From Pseudomonas oryzihabitans (GTDB lineage Bacteria; Pseudomonadota; Gammaproteobacteria; Pseudomonadales; Pseudomonadaceae), in assembly GCF_001518815.1 (NCBI RefSeq), contig NZ_CP013987.1, positions 4,610,501 to 4,674,500 of the forward strand: a stretch of DNA of 64,000 nt. The letters run 5' to 3'. Below the pieces are notes generated by a model that worked only from the letters and a program-made list of their open reading frames with translations, ran no database searches and was not told the origin of the DNA. Shown one piece after another: positions 25,754 to 49,920 of this stretch (position 1 is the first letter of the stretch; every line of letters starts with the position of its first letter). Both the position numbers and the translations under genes were made by a program.

Positions 25754-26257
25754 TCTCAACGCCGCAGCCAAGCCGGATCGACCCCGGCGAATACCTCCGT
25801 TAGCCACTCGACCAGGCACGTAGTCGCGGCGAGGTCTGGCCACTGATGTCATTGCGCCGTCTGGTCCTCGCTCACCGACCTTTCGTACAGGGCTGGAGAC
25901 CATCAAGCCGATCGCCGACCGGCGGGCTTGCGTGGTTGGCATCGATCCTGCTAGCTTGATCGGGTTAGTACCAAGCTGACCCCAATCGCTGGACGCCTTT
26001 CCGCTCGTTGTAGCAGCGCGAAATCAGCGTCATCCGGATCGAATCGATCCCTCGATTGCTCAGGATCTGCCGCCCTGGCCTCTGAATCTCGTGCCCGGCC
26101 GGTTGCCTGCCTTCCCAAGTACTTACCTGCATGCCTGGGCATCTTGCCCACACGCTGCCTTCCTCCAGCCAGAGATTCAGCCGTCGGCCGTTATGGGTAC
26201 GAGGTTGCTGGAGTTATTTCACCGCGCCGACTGAGCGTGGGTCCCAAGGATAGACAG
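25754..26257. other. 504-bp region without a recognisable gene
   Basis: Short open frames on the minus strand (for example 25965-26153) show no recognisable family and have no ribosome site, and local codon use is unlike the neighbours. The stretch contains scattered short hairpins (TGGGCA/TGCCCA near 26134-26148). It could be a decayed gene or an integration scar. Confidence 0.45.
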
Positions 26258-26485
26258 ATGAACATTCAAAATCAGGCCATCGCGGCCATGCAACACCTTC
26301 AAGCGGCCTTTGCACCGTTCCAATGCATCACCACCCCGGCTTCGCGCAAGGGCGGTTTCAGCTTTACCGTGGTCGACGAGCGCGGTGTCGCCTGCCGCAG
26401 CGAGCGTCTCTACCCCGAGCAGTACAACGCTGCGGCCGGGCTGGAACGCGTCATCGAACGCACCCGTCGCGCCCTGGTGGCCTGA
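26258..26485 (+). CDS. Small conserved-looking hypothetical protein
   Basis: The 75-residue cytoplasmic protein starts [43 protein letters not shown] and ends in a basic helix ([14 protein letters not shown]). AAGGA lies nine bases before the ATG, and codon usage matches the surrounding genes, supporting expression. It has no signal peptide, membrane segment or known motif. It lies 128 bp upstream of gpmA on the same strand. If both are co-transcribed, the structured gpmA leader is an intercistronic element. I do not recognise the function. Confidence 0.65.
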
Positions 26486-26506
26486 CACCCGACGCGAGTG
26501 CCGGAC

Positions 26507-26613
26507 GCATCACGGTTTCCGTGATGCCCATGCCGGAAACCTCCATCTGCGGTATGTTTGGCACAGCTTCGCGTAGGCGTGAGCCAAACAATGAATCCCA
26601 AGATGGAGGTCGC
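26507..26613 (+). promoter_or_regulatory. Structured gpmA leader with sequestered Shine-Dalgarno
   Basis: ACCTCCATCT (26539-26548) is the exact reverse complement of AGATGGAGGT (26601-26610), which contains the gpmA ribosome site. Inside, TGTTTGGC (26555-26562) pairs exactly with GCCAAACA (26583-26590). Upstream, GCATCACGG/CCGTGATGC (26507-26527) forms a 9-bp hairpin with a TTT loop. GGTTTCCG (26514-26521) can instead pair with CGGAAACC (26534-26541), which would break that hairpin and remove the first three bases of the anti-SD strand. There is no T-run, so control would be translational. Pairings are seen; function and any ligand or temperature response are inferred. Confidence 0.6.
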
Positions 26614-27360
26614 ATGTCGCAAGTCGTATTCATCCGCCATGGCCAGTCGGCGTGGAACCTGGAAAACCGCTTCAGTGGCTGGGCGGATGTGGATCTGACC
26701 GAACAGGGGATCCGCGAGGCCCACGAAGGCGGCCAGGCGCTCAAGGACGCCGGCTTCCTCTTCGACGTGGCCCATGTTTCGGTGCTCAAGCGCGCCGTGC
26801 GTACCCTGTGGCATGTGCAGGAAGGCATGGACCAGATGTGGCTGCCGGTCGTGAGCGACTGGCGCCTCAACGAGCGTCACTATGGTGGCCTGACCGGCCT
26901 GAACAAGTCCGAGACCGCTGCCAAGTATGGCGAGGAGCAGGTGCTGGTCTGGCGTCGCAGCTATGACGTACCGCCGCCCGAGCAGAGTGTCGAGGAACAG
27001 CAGGCCCTGGCCGCCGATCCGCGCTATGCCGGTCTGTCGCTGGATCAGGTGCCGCGCACCGAGTGCCTCAAGGATTGCGTCGAGCGCGTCCTGCCCTACT
27101 GGAACGAAGTCCTGGCACCGGCCATCCGCAGTGGTCAGCGTGTGCTGGTAGTCGCCCATGGCAACTCCATGCGCGCCCTGATCAAGTACCTGGACAACAT
27201 CTCCGACAGCGACATCGTCAGCCTCAACATTCCCAACGGCGTGCCGCTGGTGTACGAGTTCGACGAGAACCTCAAGCCCACCAAGCACTACTACCTGGCC
27301 GACCCGGACGAGGTCGCTGCCAAGATGGCTGCAGTGGCCAATCAGGGCAAGGCGAAGTAA
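26614..27360 (+). CDS. gpmA: 2,3-bisphosphoglycerate-dependent phosphoglycerate mutase
   Basis: The 248-residue protein of the histidine phosphatase superfamily has phospho-acceptor His9 in [26 protein letters not shown] with the proton-donor Glu, [16 protein letters not shown] with the second catalytic His, and the E. coli-like C-terminus [19 protein letters not shown]...[10 protein letters not shown]. It interconverts 3- and 2-phosphoglycerate in glycolysis. GGAGG precedes the ATG at 26614. A 20-residue in-frame extension from 26554 would open inside the leader hairpin and is rejected. Many pseudomonads rely on GpmI, so dependence on GpmA here is worth noting. Confidence 0.95.
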
Positions 27361-27369
27361 GGCGCTTGT

Positions 27370-27447
27370 TCGCGGCCATGGGCCGCTCCTACAGCCCCCA
27401 AGGCAACCGTAGGAGCGACCGCATCGGCGGACCGCCATGGCCGCGAT
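27370..27447. repeat. GTAGGAGC-type REP pair, second copy
   Basis: TCGCGGCCATGGGCCGCTCCTAC-like and inverted GTAGGAGCGACCGC...CGCCATGGCCGCGA arms flank a short spacer. It is related to 8174-8257 with the arms in the opposite order. Confidence 0.7.
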
Positions 27448-27468
27448 GAGCGATACGCCCAGACCCAC

Positions 27469-27500
27469 AGTGTGGAAAACCGTTTGGCGTTTTCCACACT
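27469..27500. repeat. AGTGTGGAAAAC inverted repeat
   Basis: A perfect 12-bp stem (AGTGTGGAAAAC/GTTTTCCACACT) has an 8-base loop. It is a longer relative of 8110-8135. Confidence 0.65.
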
Positions 27501-27517
27501 CAGGGTCGCTGGTGAAC

Positions 27518-27546
27518 GGTGGATAAGGCTGGCGCCGTTATCCACC
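27518..27546. repeat. GGTGGATAA inverted repeat
   Basis: A 9-bp stem GGTGGATAA/TTATCCACC has an 11-base loop and ends five bases before the yihY-like stop codon. It may act as the 3' end structure of that minus-strand gene. Confidence 0.6.
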
Positions 27547-27551
27547 CTACC

Positions 27552-28541
27552 TCAGTTGCGACCGTTCGGCCGTTGCACCACCCGTGCTTCACCCAGGACG
27601 CCTTCCTGCTGGGTGCCTTCGTCCTGCCCCGCCTGAATCTCTTCGTCGGCTTCCACCCCGCCATCGCCCGGCGTCTTCTCACCCTTTTCCTTGCCTTCGT
27701 CACTGTGGTGCTCGATCACCGCATTAATTTCCGCGCCGAACAGCAGCACCGCTGAAGACAGATAGAAGTACAGCAGCAGCACGATGATGGCGCCGATGCT
27801 GCCGTAGGTGGCGTTGTAGTTGGCGAAATTCTGCACGTAGTAGCCAAAGCCCAGGGATGCCAGGATCCAGACCACCACCGCCAGCACCGAGCCGGGGGTG
27901 ATGAAGCGAAAGCTCTGCTTCACGTCCGGGGTGACGTAGTAGAGCGCCGCCACGGCGATCATCAGCAGGAACACCGCCAGCGGCCAGCGGATCAGCGCCC
28001 AGAGGGTCACCATATAGTCTTCCAGCCCCACATAGGCGGCCAGCCAGTTCATCACCTGGGGACCCAGCACCATCAACGCTGCGGCGCTGAGCAGCAGGCC
28101 AGCGAGGCCTATGGTGTGCAGCACCGACAGCGGGATGCGCTTCCAGGACGGGCGGCTTTCCACCACGTCGTAGGCACTGTTCATGGCGGTCATCAGCGAG
28201 CGGAAACCGCCCGAAGCGGACCAGAGCGCAATGATGATACTGAAGGACAGCAGGCCGCCCTGCTGCGTCTGCAGCTGGTCGATGATGGGATTGACCGTGT
28301 CCAGCGCGGTGGGCGGCAGCAGGTAGGCAGCCTGTTCGCGCAGGAAGGTGAAGAAATCCGGCAGGTGCAGGAAGCCGATCAGGGCGATCAGGAACAGCAG
28401 GAAGGGAAACAGCGAAAACAGCATCTGGTAGGCCAGGGCTGCCGCATAGGTGGGCATGTCGTCAGCAACGAACTCCTGGACGGCACGCTTGATGAGGGTG
28501 AACGGCGCAATGCCGCGCAGGTTGAAGGCAAACAAGGACAT
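27552..28541 (-). CDS. YihY/BrkB (UPF0761) family inner-membrane protein
   Basis: The 329-residue protein has six predicted helices and the family pattern FVADDMPTYAAALAYQMLFSLFPFLLFLIALIGF, WSASGGFRSLMTAMNSAYDVVESRPSWKR and TPGSVLAVVVWILASLGFGYYVQNFANYNATYGSIGAIIVLLLYFYLSSAVLLFGAEINA. The roughly 45-residue tail is hydrophilic and rich in Glu and Gly. This is a UPF0761 family protein; despite old labels it is not RNase BN, and its molecular role is unknown. It is transcribed away from the glycosyltransferase operon only by order; both are on the minus strand with a 127-bp gap. Confidence 0.88.
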   Translation of the reverse strand: MSLFAFNLRGIAPFTLIKRAVQEFVADDMPTYAAALAYQMLFSLFPFLLFLIALIGFLHLPDFFTFLREQAAYLLPPTALDTVNPIIDQLQTQQGGLLSFSIIIALWSASGGFRSLMTAMNSAYDVVESRPSWKRIPLSVLHTIGLAGLLLSAAALMVLGPQVMNWLAAYVGLEDYMVTLWALIRWPLAVFLLMIAVAALYYVTPDVKQSFRFITPGSVLAVVVWILASLGFGYYVQNFANYNATYGSIGAIIVLLLYFYLSSAVLLFGAEINAVIEHHSDEGKEKGEKTPGDGGVEADEEIQAGQDEGTQQEGVLGEARVVQRPNGRN

Positions 28542-43446: not shown

Positions 43447-44453
43447 CAGCGCAGGACCTCCACGGTGACGTCGGCGGCCTGGAAGCGAGCCAAGGCGCCG
43501 TCCAGATCACCGCCCACCAGGGCGATGGTCAGCTGGCCATAGGGCTCGTCCCGGATGCGGTCGATGCGACCGCCGAGAATGCTGTAGTCCACACCGGTCT
43601 CCCGGGCGACGTGGCCCAGCAGCGGTGCATAGGTGGCTTCGCCGCGGAAGGTCAGGCGCAGGATGCGCCCCTCGACGTGGGCATAGGCGTCGGCCAGGTC
43701 GGCCTCGTCCTGGTGCTCGGCCTCGAAAACGAAACGGCGGGTGGTGGGATGTTGCGGATGCAGGAAGACATCGGCCACGGTGCCCTGCTCCACCACGGCG
43801 CCGCCGTCGAGCACGGCGACCCGGTCGCAGACGCGACGGATCACGTCCATCTCGTGGGTGATCAGCACGATGGTCAGGCCCAGTTCACGATTGAGCTCGG
43901 CGAGCAGTTGCAGCACCTGGGCGGTGGTCTGCGGATCGAGGGCACTGGTGGCCTCGTCGCAGAGCAGGATCTTCGGCTCGGTAGCCAGGGCGCGGGCGAT
44001 GCCGACGCGCTGTTTCTGGCCACCGGAGAGCTGCGCCGGATACTTGCGTGCCTGGTCGGACAACCCGACCCGCGCCAGCAGCTCCTCGACCCGCTGGGCG
44101 ATCTGCGCCCGCGAACGGCCACCCGCCAGTTCCAGCGGCAGGGCCACGTTGGCCGCCACGGTCTTGGACGAGAGCAGATTGAAGTGTTGGAAGATCATGC
44201 CGATGCGGCGACGGAAATCGCGCAGCTCGCTTGATCCCAGTGCGGTGACCTCGGCACCATCGACCAGCAGGCGACCGCCACTGGGGGCTTCGAGGCGGTT
44301 GATCAGGCGCAAGAGGGTACTCTTGCCCGCGCCGGAGTGGCCGATCAGGCCGAAGATCTCGCCGGCGTCGATCCTCAGGTCGACCGGCTGGAGCGCCGCG
44401 ACCTCGCGACCGCGCGTGCGGTACGTCTTGTGGACAGCGTGGAATTCGATCAA
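43446..44453 (-). CDS. metN: Methionine ABC transporter ATP-binding protein
   Basis: The 335-residue ATPase has Walker [10 protein letters not shown] (about residues 37-45), the signature [15 protein letters not shown], Walker [15 protein letters not shown] and a C-terminal NIL methionine-sensing domain from about residue 255 that allows trans-inhibition by intracellular methionine. The start codon is TTG at 44453: the family N-terminus [13 protein letters not shown] begins exactly there and no in-frame ATG lies near. AAGG lies about nine bases upstream. It is the first gene of the met operon, divergent from katE. Confidence 0.94.
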
Positions 44454-44736: not shown

Positions 44737-46866
<2,130 letters not shown>

Positions 46867-47760: not shown

Positions 47761-49920
47761 TCAGCTGCGAACCCGAGTGATACCAGCCACGCCCTTGAGC
47801 GTGCGCAGCTTCTTGATCACCCGCGCCAGATGGACACGGTCATGCACGCTGACCACCAGCTGGACCACGCTGATCCGGCCATCGCGTTCGTTCATGCCGA
47901 TCTTCTCGACGTTGGCGTCCGCAGCGGTGACGTTGTTGGCCAGCATGGCGATCAGGCCGCGCTGATGTTCCAGCTGGACGCGCAACTCGACGCTAAATTC
48001 GCCGGTGACGTCCTTGGCCCAGTTGAGCACGATGCACTTTTCGCTGTTGTGCCGGAATTCGGCGATGTTCCGGCAGTTTTCCAGGTGGATCACCATGCCC
48101 TTGCCGGCCGACAGGTGGCCGACGATGGGATCGCCCGGAATCGGCGTGCAGCACTTGGCGTAGCTGATCACCAGGCCTTCGGAGCCGCGGATGGCCAGCG
48201 GTCCCTGCGGCGTGGTGCCAGGCTGCGGCTCCAGCGGCTCTTCCTGCTCGCTGCCGGACACCAGGCGCCGCGCCACCACGTAGGCCATGCGATTGCCCAG
48301 GCCGATCTCCTCGAGCAGGTCCTCTAGTACCACACCCTTGTATTCGCCGAGCACCGAGAGGATGCGCATCGGCGAGATCTTCGACAGCTGGGTGCCAAAG
48401 CCGGACAGCGCCTTGTTCAGCAGCCGCTCGCCGAGGCTGATGGACTCGGAGCGACGCTGTTGCTTGAGCGCATGGCGGATATTGGTGCGGGCCTTGCCGG
48501 TGACCACGAAGTTGAGCCAGGCCGGATTGGGCCGGGCGCCAGGCGCGGTGACGATCTCCACCGTTTCACCACTGCCCAGCGGCTGCGACAGCGGCGCCAG
48601 GCGACGGTTGATGCGGCAGGCGATGCAGCTGTTGCCCACGTCGGTGTGCACCGCGTAGGCGAAGTCCACGGCCGTGGAGCCCTTGGGCAGCTCCATGATG
48701 CGGCCCTTGGGGGTGAAGACATAGACCTCGTCGGGGAAGAGGTCGATCTTCACGTTCTCGATGAATTCCAGGGAGTTGCCCGCACGTTGCTGCAACTCGA
48801 GGATGCCCTTCACCCACTGGCGGGCGCGCAAATGGCTGGCGCGCGGCTCGTCGCCCCCGGCCTTGTACAGGCCATGGGCGGCGATGCCGTTGTTGGCCAT
48901 CTCTTCCATTTCGCGGGTGCGGATCTGGATCTCGATGGGCACGCCGTGCATGCCGAACAGGGTGGTGTGCAGGGACTGGTAGCCGTTGGCCTTGGGGATG
49001 GCGATGTAGTCCTTGAAGCGCCCCGGGAACGGCTTGTAGAGATTGTGCACCGCGCCGAGCACGCGGTAGCAGGTGTCGACCTTGTCGACGATGATGCGGA
49101 AACCGTAGACGTCCATGATCTCGTTGAACGACTTCCGCTTGCCGCGCATCTTCTGGTAGATGCTGTGCAGGTGCTTCTCGCGGCCAACCACCTCGCCATC
49201 CAGGCCTTCGCGGGCCAGGCAGTTGGCCAGGGATTCCTGGATCTTGCCGAGGATCTCGCGGCGATTGCCACGGGCCGTCTTGACCGCCCGCTGAATGCGC
49301 TCGGCGCGCATCGGGTGCATGGCGCGAAAGCCCAGGTCCTCGAATTCCACATAGAAATCGTGCATGCCCAGCCGGTTGGCGATGGGCGCGTAGATTTCCA
49401 GGGTTTCCTTGGCGATGCGCCGGCTCTTGTCCGGCGGCATGGCGTCCAGGGTGCGCATGTTGTGCAGCCGGTCGGCCAGCTTGACCAGGATGACGCGGAT
49501 GTCCTTGGACATCGCCATGGTCATCTTCTGGAAGTTCTCCGCCTGGGCCTCGGCCTTGGTCTCGAACTTCATCTGGGTCAGCTTGCTGACCCCGTCTACC
49601 AGCTCCGCCACGGTCTCGCCGAACTGGCCGACCAGGGCTTCCTTGGCGATGCCGGTGTCCTCGATCACGTCGTGCAGCATGGCCGCCATCAGGCTCTGAT
49701 GGTCCATGTGCATGTCGGCGAGGATGTTGGCGACCGCCAGTGGATGGGTGACATAGGGCTCGCCGCTGCGGCGGCGCTGCCCATCGTGAGCCTGCTCGGC
49801 GTAGTAGTAGGCCCGCCGGACCAGATTGACCTGGTCGGGGGTCAGGTAGCTCGCCAGACGCTCGGCCAGCAGGTCGATGCCGGTCGGGCGGACGTCACCA
49901 TACGCAGGCTCGGCGGCCAT
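47761..49920 (-). CDS. spoT: Bifunctional (p)ppGpp synthetase/hydrolase SpoT
   Basis: The 719-residue RelA/SpoT protein has a hydrolase HD domain (about 35-185; [11 protein letters not shown] and MLHDVIEDT), a synthetase domain (about 230-360; [48 protein letters not shown]), TGS (about 395-455; [28 protein letters not shown]), a conserved-cysteine region ([14 protein letters not shown]) and a C-terminal ACT domain. The intact HD motif identifies SpoT rather than RelA. It sets alarmone level under carbon and fatty-acid stress. It starts 3 bp after rpoZ. It is slightly longer than the PAO1 protein (701) at the N-terminus. Confidence 0.95.

Follow-up and report, generated by a model that had tools for sequence, protein, structure and literature searches.

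A highly conserved gpmA leader with a predicted Shine-Dalgarno-masking hairpin in the Pseudomonas oryzihabitans group

The window analyzed here (64,000 nucleotides of Pseudomonas oryzihabitans contig NZ_CP013987.1) contains gpmA, encoding a 2,3-bisphosphoglycerate-dependent phosphoglycerate mutase, downstream of a small DUF3509-like gene with which it is possibly co-transcribed; no terminator-like site was found on the + strand in 25900-27600. The gpmA leader is predicted to fold into two adjoining hairpins, I (26499-26538) and II (26539-26610), the second consisting of a 10-bp helix that includes the Shine-Dalgarno (SD) sequence (P2), an internal loop of 6 x 10 nt, an 8-bp inner stem (P3) and a small apical stem (P4). 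The features are as follows:

26258-26485, + strand: small DUF3509-like gene of 75 aa (24.5 bits, slightly below the Pfam cut-off of 25)
26499-26538, + strand: hairpin I, a 9-bp stem (26507-26515/26519-26527) on a base of 4-6 bp; varies, with the structure mostly kept
26514-26521, + strand: 5' arm of an alternative stem (partner 26534-26541), present in the window, not conserved
26539-26548, + strand: anti-SD strand, 5' arm of P2; first base A or G across ten genomes, pairing with U either way
26540-26651, + strand: invariant block from leader position -74 to gpmA codon 13, identical in 10 genomes of the genus
26549-26554, + strand: 5' side of the internal loop between P2 and P3, invariant
26555-26562, + strand: 5' arm of P3, exact complement of the 3' arm
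26563-26582, + strand: apical part, invariant, with the short predicted stem P4 (26564-26569 paired with 26575-26578 and 26580-26581)
26583-26590, + strand: 3' arm of P3, exact complement of the 5' arm
26591-26600, + strand: 3' side of the internal loop, invariant
26601-26610, + strand: SD strand, 3' arm of P2, with GGAGG at 26605-26609; mean predicted pair probability 0.94-0.96 in 10/10 genomes
26614-27360, + strand: gpmA, 248 aa (NF010713, 408.5 bits, cut-off 305)
26628-26637, + strand: ten bases within gpmA codons 5-8 that complement the loop strands 26549-26552 and 26591-26596

Three of the stems that the earlier note had read from the letters, namely the 10-bp anti-SD/SD helix covering GGAGG, the 8-bp inner stem and the 9-bp upstream stem, were all found to be exact. 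The predicted fold is stable: for 26490-26640 the energy was -61.6 compared to -46.7 +/- 3.9 in 200 shuffles (z -3.8, with one of the 200 as good). The SD hairpin alone reached z values of -3.6 to -3.9, with 2/1000 shuffles as good in each of the three genomes folded, and for hairpin I the corresponding numbers were 0, 0 and 4 of 1000. In the folding model, about 10 kcal/mol is needed to open GGAGG, and 15 for a longer construct in which a larger number of bases had to open. P4 is predicted with a pair probability of 0.5-0.7, and the SD helix with 0.95-0.96 in all ten genomes. A stable predicted SD pairing upstream of the start codon, as expected of an SD-sequestering leader, is therefore present. 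The first fold also contained a closing helix that joined the 5' end of the leader to the start codon; with its low probability in all ten genomes (0.00-0.40), it was dropped.

The earlier note considered the two nested complements unlikely by chance. Perfect SD complements of at least 10 bases were found at 3/294 gene starts in the window together with 20 further 20-kb stretches, a set of heuristically called starts that does not include gpmA itself, for which the caller picked another start. The SD stem alone is thus roughly a 1% event; it is the conservation that lifts the gpmA hairpin clear of chance. Two of the three starts with a perfect complement sit, by eye, in a repeated GTAGGAGCGGCC element.

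Among the 44,499 positions covered in all ten genomes, the 112-nt block 26540-26651 is the longest invariant run. The next longest runs measure 74, 74 and 71 nt (49487-49560, 45163-45236 and 44368-44438, respectively). The leader is conserved beyond its neighbours, again as expected of an SD-sequestering leader: its 74 nt contain no variable site, compared to 9-66 upstream of 26 other genes in the window, whose starts were called heuristically and three of which were judged over 33, 62 and 73 covered positions. These counts ignore kinship among the ten genomes, which are related and contribute 8 distinct leader sequences. As a yardstick, the core of the TPP riboswitch (RF00059) in the same genomes varied at 5/127 sites, and its longest stretch free of variation measured 48. 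Within the gpmA block, invariance is no less complete at unpaired than at paired bases.

The constraint also reaches into the coding start, which is beyond what an SD hairpin explains. In codons 2-34 of gpmA, 3/33 third positions were variable (Fisher about 4e-5), compared to 373/858 summed over the other 26 genes; one other gene, at 44453, was likewise low (2/33). After codon 34, gpmA is ordinary, with 97/214 third positions variable. Because the gene diverges normally past this point, the invariance of leader and coding start is not due simply to recent acquisition or spread. These results support the view that the block is under selection and carries a predicted fold that would mask the gpmA SD.

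The same invariance limits what covariation can tell. In hairpin II, 23 of the 24 pairs never vary and the remaining one alternates between A-U and G-U, so that covariation cannot judge the SD helix; missing covariation, which the earlier note would have counted against the structure, is uninformative here. Hairpin I changes more freely: one genome (G010) shows one A-U to G-C exchange, one C-G to U-G exchange and one broken pair, and two foot pairs are each open in 2/8 distinct sequences. The single compensatory change was also reached by 65/500 shuffles and is not significant. The earlier note had further proposed that the 9-bp stem of hairpin I and an 8-bp alternative stem (26514-26521/26534-26541) exclude each other. 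The alternative stem is exact in the window's own sequence; it is complete in only this one of the ten genomes, one of its pairs forms in 2/8 distinct sequences, and its pair probability is 0.0 in all ten, so this switch was abandoned.

The element was also searched for elsewhere. It occurs once in its own genome. An RNA model run against 298 family and 369 class genomes returned ten copies in the genus and seven weak matches (E 0.007-0.46), and none of the five of these seven that were checked had gpmA in the fetched flanks. At the DNA level, 398 phylum genomes yielded two copies in the genus and three weak matches of 24-33 nt, also with no gpmA in the fetched flanks. Among the weak matches in congeners, the four loci viewed appear by eye to be one coding sequence resembling enoyl-CoA hydratase and were rejected. 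Searches of plasmids, phages and viral contigs found no leader match except three stretches of Sphingomonadaceae plasmids, all starting at 26602 or later, which limits them to the SD and the coding start at most. Of the best 80 loci, 76 are gpmA homologues from outside the group, and the longest SD complement in their leaders was 0-5 bases (76/76), although many of these leaders have no recognisable SD and the test is inapplicable to them. Rfam gave no gathering match in the window, and with relaxed settings 26480-26720 matched only mir-86, at chance level (E 0.19). By these searches, the element is clade-specific, with no convincing relative outside the genus in the genomes searched, and hence there is no independent evolutionary replicate.

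The gene behind this leader has an unusual distribution of its own. GpmA is 98-100% identical in four named relatives of the P. oryzihabitans group. Of 13 genomes of the genus, ten carry gpmA without gpmI and three carry gpmI without gpmA, a statement of sole mutase that covers the two classes searched (gpmA, gpmI); other histidine-phosphatase-family proteins are matched in part, at about 28-34% identity, in the same ten genomes. Across 398 Pseudomonadaceae genomes, a gpmA match at E 1e-40 or better was found in these ten and one more, the latter with a 43% identical protein, and within the best 80 loci the most similar GpmA from any other source is 77% identical (Dyella). These comparisons are most simply read as an acquired enzyme that displaced gpmI in the clade. 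In the three gpmI-bearing genomes (G002, G004, G005), no DNA match at E 0.01 was found to 25930-26480, which covers the DUF3509-like gene and its upstream region. Displacement between cofactor-dependent and cofactor-independent mutases (dPGM and iPGM) has been described for bacteria in general and, as here, close relatives differ in the enzyme they carry (PMC2964296). That study places Pseudomonas among the genera with iPGM-only genomes, whereas ten of the 13 genomes of the genus considered here have gpmA and no gpmI; its main text does not contain the word "regulation".

Comparing the leader to known systems, we found the closest likeness in its predicted working to SD-masking leaders such as that of ymdA in Escherichia coli. 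There, a hairpin located 5' of the start codon completely covers the SD, as is predicted for gpmA, and is opened by the trans factor CsrA (PMC7492729). Unlike in this system, GGA is common to all ten gpmA leaders only twice, at -9 in the SD itself and at -111 at the foot of hairpin I, each within or next to a predicted helix; non-conserved copies occur at -100, where they fall in the hairpin I loop (three genomes), and at -79 (three genomes). A conserved GGA in a hairpin loop, which would be expected for CsrA/RsmA control, is thus absent from the ten leaders. Translational riboswitches (yybP-ykoY at mntP, PMC9315381; TPP, RF00059) share the leader position and the masking of the SD, and in the same genomes the gpmA leader is conserved at or above the level of the TPP riboswitch. 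In contrast to these, it has no Rfam family match and stands before one gene in one genus. The one link between a riboswitch and gpmA found among the matches listed is a fluoride riboswitch before ppaC in Enterobacter cloacae FRM, which controls a six-gene operon including gpmA (PMC5533749). The fluoride (crcB) family RF01734 had no match at the gpmA leader, either in the window or in the relaxed search of 26480-26720, and among the matches listed, the titles and opening lines of abstracts in the open literature contained no regulatory gpmA leader other than this operon. As far as can be predicted, the leader therefore resembles SD-masking leaders, and no named family is assigned.

We consider it probable (roughly 0.68) that in the P. 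oryzihabitans group the leader of gpmA acts in cis as an RNA that controls translation and is closed by default and specifically opened. The reading starts from what was established by computation. This comprises the stems, the masking predicted from them, an extreme conservation that holds for unpaired as well as paired bases, and the fact that the element is missing from the other genomes searched. A regulatory role is likely. By default, the 10-bp helix would cover the SD and keep gpmA translation low. A small molecule, an RNA-binding protein or a small RNA would then bind the invariant internal loop and apical part, and binding would open or remodel the hairpin so that ribosomes can load. 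We make no choice among metabolite, protein and sRNA as the opener.

The same hairpin could also act as a passive damper or stabiliser, fixing translation at a low level or protecting the mRNA with no signal involved. Its stable predicted fold agrees with this, and with a strong SD (GGAGG), an acquired gene could be tuned simply by a fixed brake. However, a stem with a passive role should be free to accept compensatory exchanges and changes in its loop, as is seen in hairpin I, whereas the internal-loop and apical bases of hairpin II are invariant in ten genomes. Since a plain brake needs no invariant loops, specific recognition by an opener at the internal loop and apex is favoured over a passive hairpin, which we regard as unlikely. 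RNA thermometers usually mask the SD in this manner, and the earlier note had listed one among its options. In the model, however, the SD stays closed from 10 to 70 °C, the accessibility of GGAGG going from 0.0003 at 37 °C to 0.0004 at 42 °C and reaching 0.004 at 70 °C, and no Rfam thermometer matched. A simple thermometer, in which the SD helix melts with temperature, is thus disfavoured by the model and very improbable.

Other explanations place the constraint outside the RNA fold. A promoter or operator over the leader could cause the invariance at the DNA level, the inverted repeats being incidental or the operator of a protein. As 26482-26494 is variable among the ten genomes, a promoter could sit in the conserved block, and 26558-26564 (TTGGCAC) resembles the -24 box of sigma-54 promoters. 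These promoters have ten bases between GG and GC, whereas nine were counted here by eye, and a scan limited to sigma-70-like sites found none in 25900-27600. Furthermore, the strands between the nested repeats differ in length (6 and 10 bases), like those of an internal loop in RNA, and the block extends to codon 13, which leaves a DNA-level element quite improbable. A transcription start inside the hairpin would leave the anti-SD strand out of the mRNA. Coding constraint, either from an N-terminal extension of GpmA or from an overlapping frame, is very improbable. It could draw on the gpmA frame being open far upstream (345-aa ORF), on in-frame ATGs at 26524 and 26530 and on a +1-frame ORF of 35 aa spanning 26591-26698 (the latter two by eye). 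The 112-nt block, however, shows no third-position variation, whereas 4717/9605 third positions vary elsewhere (outside the first 33 codons), and changes at 26529 and 26537-26539 partly alter amino acids in the gpmA frame. ATG 26524 is lost in G010 (ATG 26530 is kept in all ten), the changes at 26652 and 26688 fall on third positions of gpmA and second positions of the overlapping frame, and the GpmA homologues listed begin at the same Met. Both the extension and the overlapping ORF are thus disfavoured by the third-position invariance and the pattern of changes.

A more specific form of the control RNA would make the leader a sensor of a glycolytic signal, e.g. phosphoglycerate, that arose after gpmA displaced gpmI and in which the internal loop pairs with codons 5-8. 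When the SD was forced open in the model, 26549-26552 and 26591-26596 paired with 26628-26637, leaving SD and AUG in a loop, and the pairing is invariant across the ten genomes. It could be a pseudoknot locking the closed state, or an open state exposing SD and AUG, and the coding start itself would then be part of the switch. Matches of at least 10 bases arose in 40/20000 loop shuffles and 39/20000 CDS shuffles (0.2%), and in 81/3000 synonymous recodings, figures to be read with the pairing having been found post hoc; in 1895/2000 synonymous recodings, the SD-open fold equalled or exceeded the real one in stability. A pseudoknot of these bases with the SD helix closed is beyond the scoring of the folding programs used. 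We therefore treat the pairing, as alternative fold or pseudoknot, as a weak lead, and the sensor with all its parts as a tentative and distinctly doubtful proposal. In this clade, gpmA seems to have taken the place of an unrelated enzyme with the same function, and the most constrained stretch found in the neighbourhood runs before and into this gene. A leader that senses flux or a metabolite would represent an unusual direct RNA control of lower glycolysis and a regulation built around a displaced enzyme. The ten genomes bearing the element and the three gpmI congeners offer a testable comparison.

Beyond the gpmA leader, the noncoding stretch 26100-26240 before the DUF3509-like gene is highly conserved, with invariant runs of 41, 41 and 42 nt in the ten genomes; the fold of 25940-26260 reached a z of only -1.9. 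Outside the window, a hairpin motif of 50 nt (GCTCCGATAAGGAtCAT...stem-loop...GGATTCGGAG) precedes a DUF3509-like homologue in 9/9 motif loci examined (L157, L158, L160 and L206-L211), starting about 95-99 nt upstream of the gene; a tenth homologue, at L159, has no such motif. The exact pattern occurred in 20/148 family genomes and 4/19 genera, with none for the backward-read control among the matches listed, and had no match in the genome of the window. RNAalifold on 16 distinct sequences showed compensatory changes in 5/15 pairs, and Rfam on three loci returned only a tRNA. This motif is possibly an undescribed cis-regulatory RNA. Finally, a palindromic element, GTAGGAGCG(G/A)CC, which is REP-like by eye, recurs in intergenic-looking places of this genome (L144, L138 and 27380-27425 of the window).
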